Positions 6,306 to 45,100 of a stretch of 64,000 nt of DNA are shown here, piece after piece. The notes beneath the pieces were generated by a model. The model ran no database searches, had not been told where the DNA came from, and worked only from the letters and a program-made list of their open reading frames with translations. The DNA comes from a virus. A program made the translations under genes and the position numbers. Location: the IMG/VR virus record IMGVR_UViG_3300018080_000115, positions 62,001 to 126,000 of that record. One strand, 5' to 3'. Each line of letters opens with the position of its first letter. Position 1 is the first letter of the stretch.

Positions 6306-6623
6306 ATGTCAGAAATGAAATTCCAAGCAGAATGGGATTGGGAGAATGCGACTCAGGCCGACATCGATTGGCTTCGAGAACGCGCCGCCGAACTGATCCA
6401 ACGTGCATCCGATGCGACAGGCATCCTGGCAAAAGACAAGAAATCAGACGTTTGTCGTCATCATGACATCGATGAATTCGACGTGGAAAGCCTGTTGAGA
6501 GATCAAGCCGAATTCAACTTCGAAGACGAGAAATACCTTGGATGCTCAGATTGGGAAACAGAATACATCAACAACAAAATCCCATGGAGCGAAATTTGCC
6601 GACTCTCTGAACAACTAGACTGA
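6306..6623 (+). CDS. acidic hypothetical protein, 105 aa
   Basis: AAGGA at 6294-6298 gives good spacing to ATG 6306 (the ATG at 6300 is too close). Strongly acidic, with many Glu/Asp and several Trp (WDWENA, SDWETEY). Small acidic phage proteins of this kind are often DNA mimics or host-enzyme inhibitors, but that is inference from composition only. Confidence 0.6.
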   Translation: MSEMKFQAEWDWENATQADIDWLRERAAELIQRASDATGILAKDKKSDVCRHHDIDEFDVESLLRDQAEFNFEDEKYLGCSDWETEYINNKIPWSEICRLSEQLD

Positions 6624-6660: not shown

Positions 6661-7164
6661 ATGACCAAGTTCAAGCAATTCAAGGCAATCCAGAAGAAGC
6701 GTGCCGAGATCATCCGTCACAACAAGCGTCTGGTGCGCAGTTCCGACCAGATGCATGCCATGATCGATCAGGACAGCTTGCTGTCGCACCGAAACGATTC
6801 TCAAACCGATGATCACAGCGAAATGCACCACATGTTTTCCATGTGGAAGTTGCACAACAACCTGCGAGTCGCCAAAACCAATTATCGGCTGAATCACATC
6901 GCTTGGTCTTTGGCGAAGAAAAGGCTGACAAACGACCAGCAAGCGAAGGACTACTACAGCGAGCGCATCGAATCGAACTGCAAGCATCCATTGTCCGATG
7001 AACAGTGGAAGATCATCCTGATGATGCGTGACAGGATGTTCTGCGCCTATGATCAACACAAGCAGATGCAGTGCATCAAACGTAACGAAGAGCTGAAGAC
7101 AAAGATGCAGCCGTTGCGTACTGATGGAGAAGCCCGTATCATCGAAGTTCCCGATATGATCTGA
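6661..7164 (+). CDS. hypothetical protein, 167 aa
   Basis: Good Shine-Dalgarno (AAAGGAA) before ATG 6661. The protein is basic and helical, with many Gln, His, Met and Lys and a probable coiled-coil character. No known motif. It ends 10 nt before the first tRNA gene, so it is probably co-transcribed with both tRNAs. Confidence 0.6.
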   Translation: MTKFKQFKAIQKKRAEIIRHNKRLVRSSDQMHAMIDQDSLLSHRNDSQTDDHSEMHHMFSMWKLHNNLRVAKTNYRLNHIAWSLAKKRLTNDQQAKDYYSERIESNCKHPLSDEQWKIILMMRDRMFCAYDQHKQMQCIKRNEELKTKMQPLRTDGEARIIEVPDMI

Positions 7165-7174
7165 TCCGACAACC

Positions 7175-7250
7175 GAGCGTGTAGTTCAATGGTAGAACGA
7201 CAGACTCTAAATCTGTGTCAGTCTTGGTTCGAATCCAAGCACGCTCACCA
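7175..7250 (+). tRNA. tRNA with CUA anticodon (amber suppressor type)
   Basis: Full cloverleaf with encoded CCA. The acceptor stem GAGCGTG/CACGCTC is 7 bp and perfect. The D stem is GTTC/GAAC with GG in the loop. The anticodon stem ACAGA/TCTGT is perfect with loop CTCTAAA, so positions 34-36 read CUA. The T stem is CTTGG/CCAAG with loop TTCGAAT. Discriminator base A. The anticodon pairs with UAG stop codons. The amino acid cannot be assigned from sequence alone. The variable loop is about 6 nt; no other register gives a normal anticodon loop. Confidence 0.85.
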
Positions 7251-7259
7251 AGATTCGAC

Positions 7260-7279
7260 GGGGAAGGACATCCTTCCCC
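7260..7279 (+). other. hairpin between the two tRNAs
   Basis: GGGGAAGG and CCTTCCCC form a perfect 8-bp stem around ACAT. No U-tract follows, so it is more likely a processing or spacer hairpin within a tRNA precursor than a terminator. Confidence 0.6.
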
Positions 7280-7289
7280 ATTCCGAATT

Positions 7290-7365
7290 GGGCGCGTAGT
7301 TCCAATGGAAGAACGCTTGTTTTGCATGCAAGAGGTTGCGGGTTCAAATCCCGTCGCGTCCACCA
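7290..7365 (+). tRNA. tRNA-Ala (UGC)
   Basis: 76-nt cloverleaf with encoded CCA. Acceptor GGGCGCG/CGCGTCC (one G-U pair), D stem GTTC/GAAC, anticodon stem CTTGT/GCAAG with loop TTTGCAT giving anticodon UGC, T stem GCGGG/CCCGT with loop TTCAAAT. Discriminator A. It lies 39 nt after the CUA tRNA and is probably cut from the same precursor. Confidence 0.9.
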
Positions 7366-8963: not shown

Positions 8964-10271
8964 ATGAAAATCCACAGATCCCACAAGATTGAATTGAAGC
9001 CAAACAATGTGCAGTGCGGCTATTTCAGGCGTGCTTGCGGCATTGCGAGGTTTGTCTTCAATTGGGGCCTTGCGGAATGGAAACAGCAGTACGAAGCAGA
9101 TGAGAAGCCAAGCAAATTCAAGCTGAAAAAAGAATTCAATGCGATCAAGCACGATGCGTTTCCATTTGTGACTGAAGTGACAAAGTGCGCTGCTGAGTGC
9201 GCTTTCGATCGTCTTGGAACAGCATTCAAGAACTTCTTTCGCAACATCAAAGCAGGAAACAAGCCTGGATATCCTCAGTTCAAGCGCAAAGGAAAGTGTA
9301 AGGATTCATTTTATCTAGCTAATAATCAATTTAGTATAAATAGAAACAAGATTAGAATTCCGTTGTTGGGTTGGGTTCGAATGAGAGAGTGTCTGCGTTA
9401 CAGCGGCAAGATTCTATCCGCAACCATTAGTCGAACCGCTGAGAAATGGTTCGTTTCCATAAGCGTTGAGATTGACATTGATGAACCAGCCAATCGTGAA
9501 ACCCAAGCGTTGGTCGGTATTGATGTTGGACTCAACAGTTTCGCAATCCTGAGCACTGGCGAATCATTCACTGCACCGAAGCCATTGAAACACGCTCTGA
9601 AAAAGTTGAGACAGTTGAACAAAAAGCTGTCTCGACAGATCAAAGGATCGAACAACAGAGAGAAGACCAAGCAAAAGCTTGCAAAGCTGTACTATCACAT
9701 CAGTTGTGTTCGAAACGATTTCACGCACAAGCTGAGCACTGTTTTGCTGAAGTGCTTCAGCGGAATTGCAATCGAGGATCTGAACATCAAAGGGATGATC
9801 CGCAACAGAAATTTGTCGAAATCGATCAGTGATGTTGCTTGGTCTGAATTCAGACGTCAACTCGAATATAAAGCAGAAGCGTTCGGTTCGAAAGTGATTG
9901 CAATCAATCAATGGTTTCCGAGTACGCAGCAGTGTTCACAGTGCTGTTCGCTCAAGGATGGCGACGAAAAATTGAAGCTTGGCAATGAAACCTATCGTTG
10001 TGATCATTGCGGTTCAGTGATGGATCGTGACTTGAATGCAGCGATCAACATTCGAAACGAAGGATTCAACCTCAGTCCGTATTCTTTCGCCGCTGGCTTG
10101 GCGGTTTCATTGGAATCATCATCTCAGCTAAACGATTCCAGTGATGAGCCTGTCGTCTTGGTTGTCACTGCCAAGGATGTTCATCCTTCGGATACATCCT
10201 TGATCAAACACCATTGGGCAGGAAGTTTTCATGAACCAAATGATACTATGATGGTTCAATCGATTCAGTAA
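8964..10271 (+). CDS. tnpB: TnpB RNA-guided nuclease (IS200/IS605 family)
   Basis: 435 residues. The RuvC catalytic residues are present: Asp in VGIDVGLNS (~186), Glu in IAIEDLNIKG (~269) and Asp in DRDLNAAINI (~354). A CxxC...CxxC zinc ribbon (CSQC near 325, CDHC near 346) lies between the last two, as expected for TnpB. Family members are omega-RNA-guided DNA endonucleases encoded with or without the TnpA transposase. No tnpA is in the window, so this is a stand-alone copy. The C-terminal ~70 residues extend past the last RuvC motif; in this family the guide RNA overlaps the 3' end of the gene. The frame is intact and probably functional. Confidence 0.9.
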   Translation: MKIHRSHKIELKPNNVQCGYFRRACGIARFVFNWGLAEWKQQYEADEKPSKFKLKKEFNAIKHDAFPFVTEVTKCAAECAFDRLGTAFKNFFRNIKAGNKPGYPQFKRKGKCKDSFYLANNQFSINRNKIRIPLLGWVRMRECLRYSGKILSATISRTAEKWFVSISVEIDIDEPANRETQALVGIDVGLNSFAILSTGESFTAPKPLKHALKKLRQLNKKLSRQIKGSNNREKTKQKLAKLYYHISCVRNDFTHKLSTVLLKCFSGIAIEDLNIKGMIRNRNLSKSISDVAWSEFRRQLEYKAEAFGSKVIAINQWFPSTQQCSQCCSLKDGDEKLKLGNETYRCDHCGSVMDRDLNAAINIRNEGFNLSPYSFAAGLAVSLESSSQLNDSSDEPVVLVVTAKDVHPSDTSLIKHHWAGSFHEPNDTMMVQSIQ

Positions 10272-10295: not shown

Positions 10296-10964
10296 ATGTC
10301 ATGGCTTGGATTCAAGAAGCTGCTCTATCGATGGAGCGTCAAGCGAGGAAAACTGTACTCAGGCTGGTCGAAGCACATTCAGAAACTTGACAAACAATAC
10401 ATCGGCACTCGACCGAATTGGGGAGATCTGACTCCAAAGGTTGCTCAGGCGATCATGAACAAGATTCAATGGCGCGAAGACGATTGGAAGCGTCTAGGCG
10501 ACGCATTCCGACACCCTGACGTTGGAGACCACTTGTTCAACTGCATCATTCGCGGACACGGAGACAACCCGGATGATCTTGCCAATATGCCGCGCAGCAA
10601 GATTCCAGGCCGAATCATGCATTACAACAAAGGGCATGGACAGCCGCCCAACGAGCCGTTTGATTGCGATGAATTCAGCCTATGGTGCGCCACACGGCTT
10701 CAGGCTCGATACGACGTCCGCATTCTCAATGTAGTCTGGTCGACCGGGAAGAAACTGCAAGACATCTCCGGTCACAACCTGTGCCTGATCAAAATGGAGA
10801 ATGAACACGGCGTCCGACGCTACTATCACATGGGGAATTGGGGAACCTATGGCGGATTCCGCACCGTCAATGAAGCGGTTGCGGACGTCGTCAGAAAAGC
10901 CGGTTCAAACCGCCTGATCGGATGGCACATGTACAACCCCCGTGAGCTGTACCGCAAAAAGTAG
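10296..10964 (+). CDS. transglutaminase-like cysteine protein, 222 aa
   Basis: The stretch FDCDEFSLWCATRLQ resembles the Cys-containing helix of bacterial transglutaminase-like cysteine peptidases. SGHNLCLI and MGNWG downstream would supply His and the third polar residue. The N-terminus is basic. Possible roles are peptide cleavage or cross-linking in the virion or the host. It ends in TAG and meets the minus-strand operon tail to tail with only 9 nt between. Family assignment is tentative. Confidence 0.45.
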   Translation: MSWLGFKKLLYRWSVKRGKLYSGWSKHIQKLDKQYIGTRPNWGDLTPKVAQAIMNKIQWREDDWKRLGDAFRHPDVGDHLFNCIIRGHGDNPDDLANMPRSKIPGRIMHYNKGHGQPPNEPFDCDEFSLWCATRLQARYDVRILNVVWSTGKKLQDISGHNLCLIKMENEHGVRRYYHMGNWGTYGGFRTVNEAVADVVRKAGSNRLIGWHMYNPRELYRKK

Positions 10965-16593: not shown

Positions 16594-17196
16594 TCAAGAG
16601 ACGATTTCGACCGTGACGGGCGGCGCGGTTTGATCGACGAATTCAAACTTGACGCTTCCGATAACCCCTTGACGTTTCGGGCGAAAGTCAGTCGTCATGC
16701 TTTTCACGCGATGCGGCCGGTCATCGTAATAGACCCGATCGCCCTTCTTGATCTGATCCAAGTGCTGATCGCGAATGAAGCCGCTGCTGAGATTCACGTC
16801 CTTGTGGATATCACCTCGCTCATCACCCTCAGTGACCCCGCTGTAGATTTCTCCTGGGACGCCGTCATAACCGCTTCTGATGCGCTGATAGGTGCGATCC
16901 GATGGACCGCCCTGCATCTGAGCCGGTTTGAAATCGGCAGGCATGTCGATCCAATCTTTGCGGTCGCCCACCTCGTTCGGATCGGCTTTTTGCTCGTCTT
17001 CCGCTTCGCCCAACTGCGGATCAACCAGACCGCCAGCCTGTCTACGCTGCCGCTCCTCTTCGTCCTGAGCAAGCGTTGTTCCAAGCGGCAACCGATGAAC
17101 GAACGGCGAAATATCTGCCGTAGTGGTCGCAGCAGCAGCCCCGCTGTCGTCATCAATCAGTTTTTTGCGCTTGATGTTGAGATCTTGAACCTGCAT
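16594..17196 (-). CDS. hypothetical protein, 200 aa
   Basis: The N-terminal half is acidic and low complexity (Asp/Glu/Gln/Pro). The C-terminal half looks folded, with a KKGDRVYYDDRPHRVKSM stretch like a small beta-barrel. GGAAGG precedes ATG 17196, and the leader can fold into a nested stem-loop. It probably belongs to the tail operon. Confidence 0.55.
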   Translation of the reverse strand: MQVQDLNIKRKKLIDDDSGAAAATTTADISPFVHRLPLGTTLAQDEEERQRRQAGGLVDPQLGEAEDEQKADPNEVGDRKDWIDMPADFKPAQMQGGPSDRTYQRIRSGYDGVPGEIYSGVTEGDERGDIHKDVNLSSGFIRDQHLDQIKKGDRVYYDDRPHRVKSMTTDFRPKRQGVIGSVKFEFVDQTAPPVTVEIVS

Positions 17197-17257
17197 TGAT
17201 CGTGCCCTTCCTGTGAAAGAGAATTCACTCTCACAGTTTATCTTAGGCCACGATCAA
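17196..17257 (-). promoter_or_regulatory. nested stem-loop in the leader, flanking the RBS
   Basis: TTGATCGTG (17196-17204) and CACGATCAA (17249-17257) form a 9-bp outer stem. CTGTGA/TCACAG (17211-17216/17231-17236) forms an inner hairpin. The outer stem includes bases adjoining the start codon of the 200-aa gene, with GGAAGG between the stems, so translation may depend on melting. Confidence 0.5.
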
Positions 17258-17258
17258 G

Positions 17259-17882
17259 TCAATCCAAACTATCTGATTCTTCTTGTGCTTCCGCAGGATC
17301 AGGCTTCCCAAGTACATATCGCTTTTCATGGCAGGCAAGAGCCGCTTCCACGACGTCACTCTTGAAGCAGCCCTCTGAAAACGCTTTCCATGACATGACC
17401 ACCATGTCCGCTTTTTGCAGCGACATGGACCATAGAGGAGAATGGTCATCGATGTAATAGATCTGTTCGATTTTGGCGCTTGCCGTTTTTCCCGTCAATA
17501 CCTTGAACAGCTCTTCGAGGAAGTATCGAGGGAATGCGATGAAGAATGATTTGCGGTCTTCCTTGAACATCAGCATTGGAATCTGCTTGAACCGCATCGC
17601 CTGCACTTTGGCTTGCTCCCAATGCGCCCACAAATCCGCCTTCGGATTCGTCATCAGAGAGTAGAGCGAAAGTTGAGCATACGCCTTCACTTCCACGCTG
17701 AATGGAAACTCTTCGTCATCACAATAGATATCGCCGGTCATCGCCCGCTGAAGATTCGGAGAAAGCGCATCCGCCATCACGGTCGCCATTGCTCCGGACG
17801 CCGGTGAACGATAGAACTTCACGCCCCACCATTCTGCCAACAGTTTTGCCGCGTCCCGCTCGCCTTTCTTCCATCCCTTCAT
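17259..17882 (-). CDS. Hjc-like Holliday junction resolvase / PD-(D/E)XK nuclease
   Basis: 207 residues. The nuclease pattern is visible in the N-terminal third: Glu8 in KKGERDAAK, Asp51 in TGDIY, and Glu64-x-Lys66 in VEVKAY. This E...D...ExK set is the metal-binding core of archaeal-type Holliday junction resolvases and related endonucleases. Next to a Cas4/RecB-like nuclease, UvsW and UvsX, the likely role is branch cleavage during recombination or before packaging. The C-terminal ~100 residues are not recognised. Confidence 0.7.
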   Translation of the reverse strand: MKGWKKGERDAAKLLAEWWGVKFYRSPASGAMATVMADALSPNLQRAMTGDIYCDDEEFPFSVEVKAYAQLSLYSLMTNPKADLWAHWEQAKVQAMRFKQIPMLMFKEDRKSFFIAFPRYFLEELFKVLTGKTASAKIEQIYYIDDHSPLWSMSLQKADMVVMSWKAFSEGCFKSDVVEAALACHEKRYVLGKPDPAEAQEESDSLD

Positions 17883-18181
17883 TTCTGCTTCCTCCGCTTG
17901 CCCTTCAGAAACGGATATTTCTTGTCTAAATTGCCAATAACGTCAGTCACTTCCGTCAGACCTTGCTTCAGACTTGCAATAACGTCGCTCAAGTTCGAAC
18001 CAAGATCCTCACGCAGTTTTGCCCGCTCGCTAGGACTCATGTCTTCCAAAGCTTCCTTCACCCCTTCTTCGGCAGACGTTTTGACTGTGGAAGAAATCCT
18101 GTCCAGTTCTTCAATGACTTGATCAACCGACAGCATCGGCTTTTTTCCCCCAACGCCTTGACGTTCTTCACTTTTTCCCAT
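17879..18181 (-). CDS. hypothetical protein, 100 aa
   Basis: ATG 18181 (MGKSEE) is preferred over an upstream start that would overlap the nuclease gene by 58 nt. Helical with heptad-like hydrophobic spacing and a basic tail (KGKRRKQK). It overlaps the next gene by 4 nt. Probably a small coiled-coil partner protein. Confidence 0.5.
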   Translation of the reverse strand: MGKSEERQGVGGKKPMLSVDQVIEELDRISSTVKTSAEEGVKEALEDMSPSERAKLREDLGSNLSDVIASLKQGLTEVTDVIGNLDKKYPFLKGKRRKQK

Positions 18182-18887
18182 ATCTGTAGTGCGGACAATG
18201 GTTGCTGTACGGACACGGGTTGCCATATGCGTAGCATGATTTCGTATTCGGACACAGCTTTTCAGGCCGCATCAGCTCAATCAGCTTTTCAACGTAATCC
18301 CAAGTCTCTTCAGGCTTCCAGACATTCAAGCGGATCTTCTTTTTGAGCCTGAGCAGACAAAGAGCAAAATGCGCCTGACGTCCAGGATTTAGCTGTTCAT
18401 AGACGGCTTTGTAGACCGAACCCTGAAACAAGTGATACTTGGCATTGAACTTCTTGTCCGTCTTGTAATCCCAAAGGATCGCCTCTTGATCTTGCTCGTC
18501 AACCAAATCGATGATGACCTTGAACGGCGTCTTGCTTTTCGGAGTTTCCCCCATCAAGACAAGTTCCGTCTTCTGTCCGTCCCGCCACAACGTTTCAGGA
18601 TGGAATGCAGGCAAGGTTTCGTCAATGACGGTTTGGATCATTGATTTGAAGGGAGATTTTGGAGAGATGATCTGTTGCGCTCTCTGAGCCAATTCAAGAC
18701 CGCTGTTGATGCCTTCCAAACGCCCTTCTTCCAACGCCTTGTGCACAATCGTTCCGGCTTCCATCGGCGCGGTCTGCGGCGCACGCTTCCCAGCCAAATA
18801 CTGAAAGCCGTACCGATACCCACACAGCAACAAGGTCTTGAGTCTCGATACTGAAACGTATCGGTACGGCTTGTCTTGGAATCTCAT
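18168..18887 (-). CDS. Cas4/RecB-family exonuclease
   Basis: 239 residues from ATG 18887, chosen because it avoids overlap with the upstream gene and has AAAGG just before it. Motifs: an N-terminal Cys (~22), GTIVHKALEE with the conserved His, DYKTDKK (~140) carrying the ExK/DxK nuclease core, and a C-terminal Cys cluster (CYAYGNPCPYSNHCP). The split Cys set is typical of Cas4/AddB-type Fe-S nucleases. The likely role is DNA end resection in phage recombination. No CRISPR array is present in the window. Confidence 0.8.
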   Translation of the reverse strand: MRFQDKPYRYVSVSRLKTLLLCGYRYGFQYLAGKRAPQTAPMEAGTIVHKALEEGRLEGINSGLELAQRAQQIISPKSPFKSMIQTVIDETLPAFHPETLWRDGQKTELVLMGETPKSKTPFKVIIDLVDEQDQEAILWDYKTDKKFNAKYHLFQGSVYKAVYEQLNPGRQAHFALCLLRLKKKIRLNVWKPEETWDYVEKLIELMRPEKLCPNTKSCYAYGNPCPYSNHCPHYRYGKK

Positions 18888-26554: not shown

Positions 26555-27946
26555 CTATCGATTCGTCTCTTGATCGATCTGTTTCAGAAGCGCCTCAGTC
26601 GATTCCACTTCCTGATACGATGCACCTTGCGGCTGCTGTGGTTCGGCAGGCATGACAGGCTGAGCGACTTCTGGCTGTGTTTGTTGTTGCGACGGCTGCT
26701 CCTGTTGAGGCGGCTGCACAACATCATTGACCAACGGCTGCATCTGCTTCGGATACTGAGCGGCAATCTGTTGCAGTCTCGCCAGATCCCTTCCGCCTTC
26801 GCTCTGCCATTGTCCGAGAGCGGCAATAGCTTCCTGGTTCTGCATATTGACGCGGCTCATGGTTTCCATGATTTGCGTATTAATATCAGGCTGCGGCTGT
26901 GCAGCAGGCGGCTGCCCCATAGGAGCGACGCCTTGCGGCTGTCCTTGAGGCTGAGCAATGTTCATTCCCGGAACGCCCGCCGTGTTCGCGACGCCTGGAA
27001 TCTGAGCGGCATTCGGAGCATTCGGCGCACTTTGCGGCGGCACACCAGCAACAGTCTGCGGCTGAACCGCAGGAGCATTTTGCGGCATTTCAGGGGGAGT
27101 CTGATTCTGCTGCTGCTGCGGCGGCTGCTGATTCACCTGAACAGTAGTCTGTTGTGTCTGTGGCTGCGGAGAGTGCATATGCGTATCGAGAATTTTCTTC
27201 ATCTCATCATACGACTTGAGCTGAGAGAACAAATGCGCGTGCAGATCAGGCATCTCGTTCCATAACGTCGTGACGAGATTCTGATCCCCGACAGGACTTG
27301 GATCTCTAGCGATTTCCGAATTGTCATAATTCGGATATCCGCCCTTATTGGTGTTTTTAACGATCAGAATATCCTTGCCGCTGTTCCAATCCAGAATGTT
27401 TCCGTGCATCGGCCTTCCGTTCTGATCAAGACTCTGAAGCCATCCCAAGATTTTTTCCAGCATCTTCTGACCGAAATTGTACCAAACGCTCAACAATTCC
27501 TGTTCGGAACGAATGAACGCAGGAACGGCATAGCGCCTCTTGATTCCCAACGCGCTGACCCACGCCTTTTCGTTTTCGTACATGGAGCTATAATCACGCC
27601 CCTGCAAACGAGCCTGTTGAAAGACTTCATTGAGTCCTTCACAGAACGGACAGCGGCGATCAATGCTCTGATCATCGGACATATCCCAAACTTCGCGCGG
27701 ACATTCGACGCGGATTCCGCCAAAGTCATGGAACCCACATCTCATAAAGAACTGTCCTTCACTCAGCTTTGGAAGCAGATCTGGACGTCCGGTCAACAGT
27801 CGAACCCATGTCTGGTTTTCCTTCGGAGTCCAAATCAACCGACGATCGACAGAGCCAGACGGTTTCAAGATATCACTGGCTTCCCGCTCCAAAAGTTTTC
27901 CGTAATTGAATCCGCCGCCAACCGGCATATCAGGAGATTGAGTCAT
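26555..27946 (-). CDS. gp32-like single-stranded DNA-binding protein
   Basis: 463 residues. The N-terminal core has candidate zinc ligands Cys70, His73, Cys82, Cys99 and Cys102 (CGFHDFGG, then CPFCEG) inside an OB-like region, as in T4 gp32. From about residue 265 the protein is a long Pro/Gln/Ala-rich linker, then a short acidic end. Such a tail usually binds replication partners. The gene ends in TAG just before a strong terminator. It is highly likely to coat replicating single strands. Confidence 0.7.
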   Translation of the reverse strand: MTQSPDMPVGGGFNYGKLLEREASDILKPSGSVDRRLIWTPKENQTWVRLLTGRPDLLPKLSEGQFFMRCGFHDFGGIRVECPREVWDMSDDQSIDRRCPFCEGLNEVFQQARLQGRDYSSMYENEKAWVSALGIKRRYAVPAFIRSEQELLSVWYNFGQKMLEKILGWLQSLDQNGRPMHGNILDWNSGKDILIVKNTNKGGYPNYDNSEIARDPSPVGDQNLVTTLWNEMPDLHAHLFSQLKSYDEMKKILDTHMHSPQPQTQQTTVQVNQQPPQQQQNQTPPEMPQNAPAVQPQTVAGVPPQSAPNAPNAAQIPGVANTAGVPGMNIAQPQGQPQGVAPMGQPPAAQPQPDINTQIMETMSRVNMQNQEAIAALGQWQSEGGRDLARLQQIAAQYPKQMQPLVNDVVQPPQQEQPSQQQTQPEVAQPVMPAEPQQPQGASYQEVESTEALLKQIDQETNR

Positions 27947-29720: not shown

Positions 29721-31290
29721 TTTCGTTCACCATCTCCATTCCAGGCATCGCGGGCGGTCCACCAGTGTTCACCAAAGACGATTCATCATAGATCTGGTTC
29801 ATGTCCTGAATGCTCATCGTTTCTTTTATCACCTGAAACACTGCGAACATGTTGCTGCGTGAGTTTCGAGACTTGGCAAAGAACAGACGTTGGACGCCGT
29901 GAATTCGGTCCTGCGTACTCTCGTTGATAGTGAACATACCATCCAAGGTTCTCGGCTTCGCGAAAGAATCGGCTGTATTTTCCATTCGAACGGTTCTAGT
30001 GTCGTCAAGCATCCGATGCGTTTGAGTCGCCGTTATGCCGGATTTCTTGGCATCAACCATCCAACCCCTGAAATCCACGAAGCTTCTCGCCTGATTTTCG
30101 TACTCGTCTTTTCCGGGCACTTCAGGACGGGCAAGGTCGAGATAGTCATCAATGATGATGTCAGGTTCGAATCCGTAACGGTCACGCAGATCTTCACAAT
30201 AAACCCGCGACTCTCCGACAGTCGCCGCTCCTGTCGGATACTCTTTGATCATCAGCATCTTCTCGGATTCTTGGATGCCGTGACTGTCGAACAGATTCCT
30301 CCGCAACGTTTCCAAACGCTGAATGCTGACGTCCGACTGTTCGATGATCGAATCCGTTGTCGACTGAAGAAAATGACTGTCGTAACGCAATGCGACAATT
30401 TCTTCCGACACTTCCCGCGTGATGTGCAGCACGCGAAAACCGGCCTTGATGAACTGTGCGCCAAGCACTACCAACCAGATCGTTTTGCCGACACCCGGTT
30501 TGCCCATCCAGGCATACAGCTCTTTTTTCCCGAATCCGCCCCCTGGCAATAGAGAATCCAGACTTGGAAACCCGGATGGTATGCGGTCCATCCAAAACCG
30601 CTTGACCTTCTCAAATCGCTCTTGAAGACTGAAATAATCGACTCCCTGAGACGATTCCGGTTTCAAGTATGTGACGTCTTTCAGTTTTTTTAACAGTTCG
30701 TCATAATCCGGGACGCCGCCAGCCTGTTCCAGAAACAGAAACTGCATGAATTCCTGAAATCGCTGAGCACGCACCACCTGAATGACGCGCTCTTTGATGT
30801 AATCCGCCGACTGCTCGTCAACCGCTGGAACCTCATAATTGAATTGGCTCTGTGAAAACCAGTGATTGATGACGGATGCCGATGGGATCTGCTGAAATTT
30901 CTTGAAGTAGGACGTGATGAACATCCACGCCACCGCGTTCTGCTGAAACTCGAAATGTTCAGCCTTCAAGACACGCCTGAAGTACATGAACATTTCTCGA
31001 TTCTGAAGAGCAATAGCAGGAATCTGCATCTCGAAAACCGGACCCAACGAAAAATGCGACGGTCCTTGAGGGAAGATCCTCGCAATCGTATTCTGCACTT
31101 CGTTCATGCCGTCAGAAGACGATTTCTTCTTTCTGGTTCCCGAAATTTGCTGTGTCGAGAAAGACACTGACGACTGTTGAGCGGTCTGTGTCACAGATGG
31201 CGGCGGCGGTCTATCGACCGGTATGCCAATCGCAGAATGCCCTTGGTTTTTCGTTTCGTCTTGCTGCTGTATCAGGCTATGCAACGGCAT
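29692..31290 (-). CDS. DnaB-like replicative helicase
   Basis: 532 residues. A Pro/Ser/Gln-rich N-terminal extension is followed by a helical domain and a RecA-fold ATPase: Walker A GKPGVGKT (263-270), Walker B IIIDDYLDL (~372) and downstream TQTHR like the DnaB sensor region. The role is unwinding the fork 5'-3' together with the Toprim primase encoded upstream in the same operon. Confidence 0.85.
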   Translation of the reverse strand: MPLHSLIQQQDETKNQGHSAIGIPVDRPPPPSVTQTAQQSSVSFSTQQISGTRKKKSSSDGMNEVQNTIARIFPQGPSHFSLGPVFEMQIPAIALQNREMFMYFRRVLKAEHFEFQQNAVAWMFITSYFKKFQQIPSASVINHWFSQSQFNYEVPAVDEQSADYIKERVIQVVRAQRFQEFMQFLFLEQAGGVPDYDELLKKLKDVTYLKPESSQGVDYFSLQERFEKVKRFWMDRIPSGFPSLDSLLPGGGFGKKELYAWMGKPGVGKTIWLVVLGAQFIKAGFRVLHITREVSEEIVALRYDSHFLQSTTDSIIEQSDVSIQRLETLRRNLFDSHGIQESEKMLMIKEYPTGAATVGESRVYCEDLRDRYGFEPDIIIDDYLDLARPEVPGKDEYENQARSFVDFRGWMVDAKKSGITATQTHRMLDDTRTVRMENTADSFAKPRTLDGMFTINESTQDRIHGVQRLFFAKSRNSRSNMFAVFQVIKETMSIQDMNQIYDESSLVNTGGPPAMPGMEMVNENDANSQMPF

Positions 31291-31711
31291 TGGCTACCAA
31301 TACGGCAATGACGAATCCAAAGCCCCATACGGCAACCCAAACACCAGAATGGAACGCCTTCATCAATGCGTCCAAAACCTCTTGACTCCCTTTGTTGATT
31401 TCGTCAGCGTTCAATTCCGGTTCGGTCACAGGCAGTTCGTGAAGAGGCGGCGGAATCACGTCCGACTCGGCTCGAAACGACTTGATCATGACATCGTAGA
31501 AATGACCTTCCATTGCCGTAGTGCGGTTCTGGATTCGATGAGACATGATCAGAAAACACCCTGTGAAGTATTCAACCATCGAAACCATCACCAGATTGGA
31601 GAACTGCATTCGAATCTGGAAATAGCTCTTTGCGTCCCTAAAGGCTTTGAGGATCAGGAACGCGCCCGCCAGCACCATGAACGTGAAGAATATCCCTATG
31701 AGTATTCCCAT
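31277..31711 (-). CDS. membrane protein, 144 aa
   Basis: Membrane segments at residues ~4-22 and ~40-55 and at the C-terminus (VWGFGFVIAVLVANAV). The middle is polar. It overlaps the helicase start by 14 nt and ends in TAG. No signal peptide. Function unknown. Confidence 0.6.
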   Translation of the reverse strand: MGILIGIFFTFMVLAGAFLILKAFRDAKSYFQIRMQFSNLVMVSMVEYFTGCFLIMSHRIQNRTTAMEGHFYDVMIKSFRAESDVIPPPLHELPVTEPELNADEINKGSQEVLDALMKAFHSGVWVAVWGFGFVIAVLVANAVA

Positions 31712-32418: not shown

Positions 32419-33324
32419 CTAGCGTACAACGCGCAAAGTATAGATCTTGGAACCATTCAAAGTGCCTGAAACCAACTTCAAGCCAAGCAGTTCCGCTGTT
32501 CTTCGAATCTTTCTTGGCGTGCGCAATGGAGCACAAACGTAACCAGTGCAAAACACCGTACGCCAACGCTTCCGCGTCTCCGTCCCTGACAACAATGGTT
32601 CAATCTTTTTTGGAGCACGCCGATCCCGAACGAGATTCCACAACATTTCACTGCGCCGCTGCTTCTCCTCATGATTCACCGAAGGATAACCGATTTTCGC
32701 GGCATCAATCAACGCCAGCTCTTGATCAATGCCGTCACAGAAATTCAGGATCAGCTTCAGCTCTGCATAGCTGCCGCCCGCATACTGAAAATCCTGCATG
32801 GCGTCGAAGACCAACTGATTGCGCTGATCGCCTTGCTCGCACGACCAAGACAAGATCTGTTGCAGCGCAACACCGCCCGCAAGCCTCAATTCGTCAGGAT
32901 CAATGACGTCAAGCGTCTCATCGAAAAAATCCAACGATATGCATTCGTCGCATTGGTCCGAAGATTCAGCCAACTGATCCGCCAGAAAGATTCTATTGTA
33001 TCGTGCCGAAAACTTCCGGCCGCGAAGGCTATACATGAATTTTCGCAGATTGATAAAAAAGAACACATATGAACTATCCATTCTATTTGGATCATAAAGG
33101 TTGTTATACAGCATTCGAAACGCTCTCGCCAACGCTGCTCCCTCAATTTCCACCTTGATTTCTTCAGGATCGTTATAATTAAGCAGGTTACGCACCAATA
33201 ACGCTATCTGCTTGCCGATCGCGTTCTGCTTGATGATAGCGTTTGGATCTTTCTGCCATTCAAGAAACGCTTGATCAAAGGCAAACTTTTTCGAATCGTC
33301 TGTTGTTTCACGAGTGGTCGTCAT
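32419..33324 (-). CDS. gp55-like late sigma factor
   Basis: 301 residues. The first ~120 residues follow the T4 gp55 pattern: a LEWQKDP start, IIKQNAIGKQIALLV, then EIEGAALARAFRMLYNNLYD, SSYVFFFINLRKFM and basic residues, which is the core-binding and -10-recognition part of sigma region 2. The C-terminus is longer than gp55 and contains a basic helical segment. If correct, it redirects host RNA polymerase to late promoters. The gene ends in TAG. Match by eye, so moderate confidence. Confidence 0.55.
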   Translation of the reverse strand: MTTTRETTDDSKKFAFDQAFLEWQKDPNAIIKQNAIGKQIALLVRNLLNYNDPEEIKVEIEGAALARAFRMLYNNLYDPNRMDSSYVFFFINLRKFMYSLRGRKFSARYNRIFLADQLAESSDQCDECISLDFFDETLDVIDPDELRLAGGVALQQILSWSCEQGDQRNQLVFDAMQDFQYAGGSYAELKLILNFCDGIDQELALIDAAKIGYPSVNHEEKQRRSEMLWNLVRDRRAPKKIEPLLSGTETRKRWRTVFCTGYVCAPLRTPRKIRRTAELLGLKLVSGTLNGSKIYTLRVVR

Positions 33325-37315: not shown

Positions 37316-37831
37316 CTATCCCAACAATGCCCTGGCAAGTTTACTGCCCTTGGCATAGAGCAGTTTGAAAGCAGGCACCTGCGTCCAATCGAGCTGAACG
37401 ATTTCCTGCCAATACTTCACAACCGGCCAAATCTTGTCTTCCACATCATTCCTGATGTTGTTCGACTTCACATCACGCGGCACCAATCTCCTCAATCGAA
37501 ACATCGATGGCACAATCAGCAAGTCATGTGTCTTGATGATAGTGCCTTCAACAGTGCCATAGAAAGCGCCTGCCGCTGTAATATGCAATTCATACGCCAG
37601 CATTCTGCCGTTTCTGCGATCAGCCAAATAAACCGTGACGAATCCCTTGAACCCCTTGTCGTCCGAAACGCCCCACTTCGCATTGACGTCGATTCTCTTG
37701 CGCGCCCGCTCTGCAAGCCGCCTGTGTTTGCGCTCAAGAACATCCGCAACGGCCGACGCGAAATAGCGCATGTGCTCTTTGCGCTGATCGGTCGGTTCCA
37801 CAATTTCAGGAAAATTCCTGCCAAGCATCAA
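37316..37831 (-). CDS. hypothetical protein, 171 aa
   Basis: Mixed alpha/beta with an Arg-rich N-terminal helix (ERKHRRLAERARKR) and a beta-rich middle (FKGFVTVYLADRRNGRM). No motif recognised. It ends in TAG and overlaps the methyltransferase gene by 4 nt. Confidence 0.55.
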   Translation of the reverse strand: MMLGRNFPEIVEPTDQRKEHMRYFASAVADVLERKHRRLAERARKRIDVNAKWGVSDDKGFKGFVTVYLADRRNGRMLAYELHITAAGAFYGTVEGTIIKTHDLLIVPSMFRLRRLVPRDVKSNNIRNDVEDKIWPVVKYWQEIVQLDWTQVPAFKLLYAKGSKLARALLG

Positions 37832-44401: not shown

Positions 44402-45100
44402 ATGAAACGATACAAAAAAATAGAGGAAAGGATTCGCAAGGAGATCCCTTCATCTGACGGATGGACCGTGAGCCACAATCTGAATTCAGAAAAGGACGCC
44501 GTGCTGTTCAGTATTTGCGCACCCTTCGCAATGAATGAAGATGGAAACAAGGAAGCTATCAGAATCGTCCTGAAAGTGCATGCAGATTCGTATACGATCA
44601 GCTACGGAACACATTCCCATCCGAATGTCAGCCGTTGGAAGACGATTCAAACGATTTTGAAACACGTCGTTCTTCACGCAGAGTCCGAACGACAAAACCT
44701 TTCGAACTACCGAAAGCAGCACTCAAAGAACAAGATCAAAGGATCAACCATCCAAGTCGACGGAATCGACATAGAAACAATCCGCTCGCTTACCACGTCG
44801 CCGGAAGAGCGTTCAAGCCGAGTCGGTCAAGATGAACGCAACGCCCGTTTGGCGACAATCATCCTCTTCCGAGACTTCCTGAACAACATCTTCCTCACAA
44901 GAGTGCGCAACGCGCCAGATGAACTGATCACCCTATCGGAATTGCTCTTGGACTGGACGCGCGAAGCCTACGTCCCGAATCTGGACCAAATCAACGCTGT
45001 CCGAAACATCCTCATCAACCTACAAGACAGCGTGACGGAATTGAATGAAACGATGCTGTGGGAAGCGATCCTCAAGCGGTCTTTCATGCAATCCTGGTAG
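44402..45100 (+). CDS. hypothetical protein, 232 aa
   Basis: Starts 19 nt after the previous gene. Charged N-terminus, a beta-rich middle (DSYTISYGTHSHPNVSRWK) and a helical C-terminus. It ends in TAG and overlaps the 3' end of the DHH gene by 17 nt, a tail-to-tail overlap. No motif recognised. Confidence 0.55.
   Translation: MKRYKKIEERIRKEIPSSDGWTVSHNLNSEKDAVLFSICAPFAMNEDGNKEAIRIVLKVHADSYTISYGTHSHPNVSRWKTIQTILKHVVLHAESERQNLSNYRKQHSKNKIKGSTIQVDGIDIETIRSLTTSPEERSSRVGQDERNARLATIILFRDFLNNIFLTRVRNAPDELITLSELLLDWTREAYVPNLDQINAVRNILINLQDSVTELNETMLWEAILKRSFMQSW

Follow-up and report, generated by a model that had tools for sequence, protein, structure and literature searches.

A tRNA gene with a CUA anticodon in a T4-related phage that uses UAG as a stop codon

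Transfer RNA genes with a CUA anticodon are already known from phages that keep the standard genetic code, as in phage Summit and the zeta crAss-like phages. Stenotrophomonas phage Summit (MZ326862) carries such a tRNA with a ACTCTAAAT loop, together with 12 amber-ended genes, no fusion target and no synthetase, and its authors left the purpose of the tRNA unexplained (PMC9022506). In the zeta crAss-like phages, which have many tRNAs, CTA suppressor tRNAs that are apparently inactive persist across diverged phages without stop-codon recoding; the stop is there said to be missing or to have a TAA close behind it (PMC12386605). A phage-encoded CUA tRNA is likewise present in code-15 phages (TAG to Gln), among them phAss-1 and some crAss-like and jumbo phages, where TAG occurs within essential genes. 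Su7 and su3, the classical E. coli amber suppressors derived from tRNA-Trp and tRNA-Tyr respectively, are laboratory mutants, and classical amber suppressors of the strong kind have the CUCUAAA loop with A31-U39. What CUA tRNAs do in standard-code phages is a recognised problem, to which the phage described here adds a further example and a clean case: one CUA tRNA, a record with 19 genes terminated by UAG, and no recoding. New to our analysis are a Lys-like score for the tRNA body, a matched control built on Trp tRNAs, and a count of backup stops.

The window, that is, the whole stretch of 64,000 nucleotides that we analysed, spans positions 62001-126000 of a virus record of 138,362 bases (IMGVR_UViG_3300018080_000115). 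The phage is T4-related and has a GC content of 49%; its genes include a T4-type major head protein (phrog_138), tail sheath, baseplate hub, gp32-type single-strand DNA-binding protein (SSB), UvsX, a DnaB-type helicase, a polymerase related to the DnaE-like phage polymerases, and SbcC/SbcD-type genes. Phage Summit, in contrast, is a siphophage from another phage group, with 58.5% GC and five tRNAs, and the two CUA tRNAs are just generally similar in sequence. A megablast search of GenBank phages found no related genome, and no close relative was found in GenBank. IMG/VR has one contig that is 99.99% identical and two relatives whose capsid protein is 67-77% identical. The first of these (IMGVR_UViG_3300017991_000100) terminates at window position 7337, within the tRNA-Ala gene, and gives no information on tRNA-CUA; its end may reflect variation between strains or a break in the assembly at the tRNA cassette. 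The tRNA-CUA region is outside the coverage of the other two. No close relative with tRNA-CUA was found among these IMG/VR relatives, which do not span the region, and a search of IMG/VR for exact matches to the D-arm plus anticodon arm of this tRNA found none. Features of the window are collected in Table 1.

Table 1. Location and basis of the features discussed in the text (window positions).
Feature	Position	Strand	Basis
Hypothetical gene, 167 aa, directly 5' of tRNA-CUA	6661..7164	+	Gene call
tRNA with CUA anticodon (amber-suppressor type)	7175..7247	+	ARAGORN, RF00005, sequence
Anticodon CUA	7207-7209, in loop CTCTAAA (7205-7211)	+	Sequence
Encoded CCA end	7248..7250	+	Sequence
Inter-tRNA spacer with strong hairpin, no T-run	7251..7289	+	Fold z = -3.9, 0/200 shuffles equal
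tRNA-Ala(UGC), G3-U70, encoded CCA	7290..7365	+	ARAGORN (tgc), RF00005 60.9 bits; G3-U70 by sequence reading
TnpB-type RNA-guided endonuclease gene	8964-10271	+	NF040570, 299 bits
gp32-type single-strand DNA-binding protein, TAG end	26555..27946	-	PHROG E 1.4e-14, gene call
RF-1 (GGQ) domain protein, 125 aa	36932..37309	-	PF00472 E 1.1e-19; phrog_3122 E 2e-39
170-aa gene with TAG end; readthrough would enter RF-1-domain gene in frame	37316..37828	-	Gene call
Tail sheath gene, 1594 aa	57979-62763	-	Residues 1124-1592 alone match known sheath families

The initial annotation had described a complete cloverleaf with the anticodon CUA, a description with which ARAGORN, Rfam RF00005 and direct reading all agree. 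The covariance model matches 7175-7247 over its full length (69.6 bits, E 4e-13), a higher score than that of the adjoining tRNA-Ala (60.9 bits), and ARAGORN calls a tRNA at 7175-7250 with anticodon cta. Direct reading gives a fully paired acceptor stem (GAGCGTG/CACGCTC, 7/7), a D-stem GTTC/GAAC, an anticodon arm ACAGA-CTCTAAA-TCTGT, a T-arm CTTGG-TTCGAAT-CCAAG, and the discriminator base A73 with G1-C72. Because positions 34-36 are fixed by the cloverleaf register, they are CUA, and the gene joins two features of an amber-suppressor-type tRNA, a canonical fold and the CUA anticodon (RF00005, ARAGORN, sequence). Free folding of the tRNA is better than 199/200 shuffles; its single-sequence minimum fold is without the anticodon arm. 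With its conserved features all present and an encoded CCA, the tRNA is intact and not decaying. The label tRNA-Pyl printed by ARAGORN arises merely from the CUA anticodon: a tRNA-Pyl body has a very short D-loop and variable loop, whereas this one is canonical (4-bp D-stem, 7-nt D-loop, 6 nt from anticodon stem to T-stem). No synthetase gene, pyrrolysyl-tRNA synthetase included, was matched in the proteins scanned, a subset of the phage genes.

Beyond tRNA-CUA and tRNA-Ala, the 138,362-base record yielded no tRNAs. The spacer between them holds an 8-bp GGGGAAGG/CCTTCCCC pairing within a longer stem, and is a possible candidate for a processing element. Between window positions 6500 and 8000 neither a sigma-70-like promoter nor a plus-strand terminator-like site was found. 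No relatives of the 167-aa gene upstream were found in IMG/VR, and no named anti-defence gene was seen next to tRNA-CUA.

A codon-model gene call placed 179 genes on 86% of the record, ending in TGA (124), TAA (36) and TAG (19). UAG is the rarest stop of the phage (10.6%), while TGA makes up 69% of stops over the whole record, 47 of the 124 overlapping the start of the next gene. The eight TAG-ending genes listed for the window in the initial annotation are the identical eight in our independent call; among them the SSB is confirmed by its gp32-type PHROG match. The "sigma-like factor" also named there found no support: genes 32419-33324, 31277-31711 and 10296-10964 had no match in Pfam or PHROG, gene 44402-45100 none in PHROG, and gene 32419-33324 none in PDB. 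That UAG is not fully reassigned stands, since it terminates 19 of the 179 genes, including the SSB, and no gene is split by an internal TAG. Recoding of TAG (code 15) is rejected on these same grounds; the code-15 phages, unlike this one, have TAG within essential genes.

We also scanned for coding stretches that flank an in-frame stop on both sides, and compared them across stop types. In-frame downstream coding followed 3 of 19 TAG, 14 of 124 TGA and 8 of 36 TAA stops, in proportion to the stop numbers, and in all three TAG cases a start codon is present past the stop; therefore UAG ends translation normally, and no gene is visibly dependent on a suppressor. Backup stops within five codons showed no clear enrichment after TAG (6/19, against 31/124 for TGA and 8/36 for TAA), and this phage, unlike the zeta crAss-like phages, ends 19 genes in TAG mostly without a close backup stop. 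The base after TAG is T in none of the 19 cases over the whole record (against a background of 23%; chance about 0.007, judged post hoc), a pattern absent from other CUA-tRNA loci (T in 19/48). The regulated readthrough proposed in the initial annotation finds no counterpart in these counts, where neither in-frame extensions nor backup stops are in excess, nor in the arrangement at 37316, which is not generally conserved. We thus observe a tRNA with a CUA anticodon, no recoding, and no recognisable programmed targets.

The body of the tRNA offers several pointers to its isotype. A naive-Bayes classifier on Sprinzl-like positions, with the anticodon masked, was built from some 2,150 tRNAs of phages and bacteria (leave-one-out accuracy 79%). 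It placed Lys best for tRNA-CUA, 4.7 log units over Trp and at least 9.5 over the remaining isotypes at that accuracy, and correctly assigned the adjoining tRNA-Ala to Ala with a wide margin. In a comparison with 708 tRNAs, again with the anticodon masked, the closest single one was a Sinorhizobium phage tRNA-Gln(CUG), at 51 identities. The D-arm GTAGTTCAATGGTAGAACG combined with a CTNYAAA loop, a loop pattern open to Trp, Tyr, Cys and CUA alike, was found in bacterial genomes in tRNA-Trp(CCA) in 19 of 19 cases. The loop CUCUAAA with A31-U39 is common to tRNA-CUA and to su7 and su3, and the Trp anticodon CCA is one base away. Despite the Trp-only match of D-arm and loop, the tRNA lacks the G73 and the acceptor end of a Trp isotype: G73 occurs in 129 of 152 Trp tRNAs, and tRNA-CUA has A73 and a different acceptor stem; from tRNA-Tyr it differs in having no long variable arm. 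Its A73 and G1-C72 are unlike the acceptor ends usual in bacterial Gln and Trp tRNAs, and are the most frequent end in other phage CUA tRNAs (31/94 among the matches listed). Because the D-arm and loop match points to Trp only and the nearest single tRNA is a tRNA-Gln(CUG), the isotype as read from the sequence is not firm; lysine is our best, and tentative, guess for the amino acid that the tRNA may carry.

It is common for a phage to carry a UAG-reading tRNA while its genetic code is unchanged. The pattern CTCTAAA-N12-15-GGTTCGAATCC matched at least 120 stretches in IMG/VR, and among the matches listed ARAGORN confirmed at least 107 CUA tRNA genes in at least 98 loci. Many of these loci, among the matches listed, have ordinary TAG-ended ORFs, and in many the ORF length grows little when TAG is read as sense. 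A first comparison of TAG share gave a seemingly strong difference, 12.6% in CUA-tRNA loci vs 24.8% in loci with RF-1 hits. As a matched control we took IMG/VR loci with Trp-CCA tRNAs, found with the same pattern with one base altered. The CUA-tRNA loci have somewhat fewer TAG stops than these, a difference that is not significant (GC-stratified permutation p 0.13-0.25, four settings), so that this control demonstrates no footprint of suppression on stop usage. The result fits weak or conditional suppression.

We consider it about an even call that tRNA-CUA is a genuine UAG suppressor of weak, non-programmed action, which a host synthetase charges and which gives low, unspecific readthrough. 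In the outline that follows we infer the expression and charging of the tRNA, its amino acid, its efficiency and its benefit. It may have originated from a sense tRNA whose anticodon was altered to CUA, the body being nearest to Lys-type and Trp-type tRNAs. The phage would make it, probably by co-transcription with tRNA-Ala as a cassette of two tRNAs, and a host synthetase would most likely charge it, with LysRS the first choice (A73, G1-C72 and U35 are present). Once charged, it would compete weakly with host RF1 at every UAG codon, and the outcome would be a low level of unspecific readthrough of UAG genes in both phage and host, which the phage would tolerate because UAG is its rarest stop.

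Of the rival explanations, a neutral relic ranks first, followed by a host-directed effect, a recoding stage and a programmed target. A captured sense tRNA with an anticodon mutation, poorly charged or expressed and functionless, is unlikely but deserves to be taken seriously: CUA is one base from CCA and CUG, and CUU is likewise one base off; no target genes were found; and related IMG/VR records are without any tRNA, but with this region outside their coverage. Against it, the tRNA is fully canonical and outscores the adjoining tRNA-Ala, and CUA tRNAs recur in so many unrelated phages that relics alone hardly explain them. Rather improbable, in our judgement, is an action on the host, whose defence or physiology would be weakened by UAG readthrough of host genes or by a decoy for anticodon nucleases. 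Such an effect has been proposed for zeta crAss-like phages with suppressor tRNAs and no recoding (PMC12386605), but nothing in the anatomy of our locus points to it, none of the genes seen beside the tRNA is a named anti-defence gene, and sense-codon decoding after tRNA cleavage is not restorable by a CUA tRNA. Established decoding rules do not allow a CUA tRNA to substitute for a cleaved sense tRNA, and counter-defence could therefore act only as a decoy or through disturbance of the proteome.

That the tRNA marks a first step to, or a remnant of, a TAG-recoded genome like those of the code-15 phages is quite improbable, even though recoded phages carry CUA tRNAs (PMC13037316, PMC10607447) and UAG is the rarest stop here (19/179). 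The SSB and other genes still end in UAG, internal TAG is absent from the genes, no full-length phage RF1 or RF2 was present in the proteins scanned, and TAG use is comparable to that of GC-matched controls. In the relative with the 77%-identical capsid protein, moreover, two of the TAG-ended genes have homologues that stop at TAA, and therefore this phage has not purged TAG.

Least probable of all, to the point that we give it hardly any weight, is programmed readthrough directed at one particular phage gene, such as at TAG 37316, where a 170-aa protein would be fused to the RF-1/GGQ protein. The RF-1-domain gene lies in frame, its own ATG two codons past the TAG, and in two other contigs (L169 and L170) a run of 108 open codons likewise ends in a TAG shortly 5' of the RF-1 gene. 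That ATG is, however, accompanied by a plausible ribosome-binding site, in-frame neighbours are no more frequent after TAG than after TGA or TAA, a long in-frame ORF 5' of the RF-1 gene is absent from 17 of 20 other phage loci, and the CUA-tRNA pattern had no match in the record behind L169. Because of these last two observations the in-frame arrangement is probably due to chance, and we reject a programmed fusion. The RF-1-domain protein is 53-57% identical to mycobacteriophage proteins, and its family, phrog_3122, occurs in many mycobacteriophages and others and is widespread in IMG/VR phages. It has no codon-recognition domain and therefore resembles rescue factors rather than RF1/RF2. A general link between RF-1-domain genes and CUA tRNAs is likewise rejected, the CUA-tRNA pattern occurring in just 2 of 21 phage records with RF-1. 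We would give little credence to a combined reading, in which the tRNA is a selected tool, raising UAG readthrough host-wide or serving as nuclease bait, with the GGQ/RF-1-domain protein as a phage rescue factor; were it true, that factor would free ribosomes stalled or mis-extended through the action of the CUA tRNA.

Three further observations concern other genes. The N-terminal part of the tail sheath protein, about 1,100 residues, has no family match. The phage amidoligase family phrog_2443 is represented by three separate genes (L003:12327-13412, plus strand; L004:7911-10322 and L004:11539-12702, both minus strand). A second TnpB-type gene is located at record positions about 16992-18245 (window -45009 to -43756), the DNA of the two being about 75% identical over 680 bases, and one TnpB-type gene is also present in a relative contig (L347).
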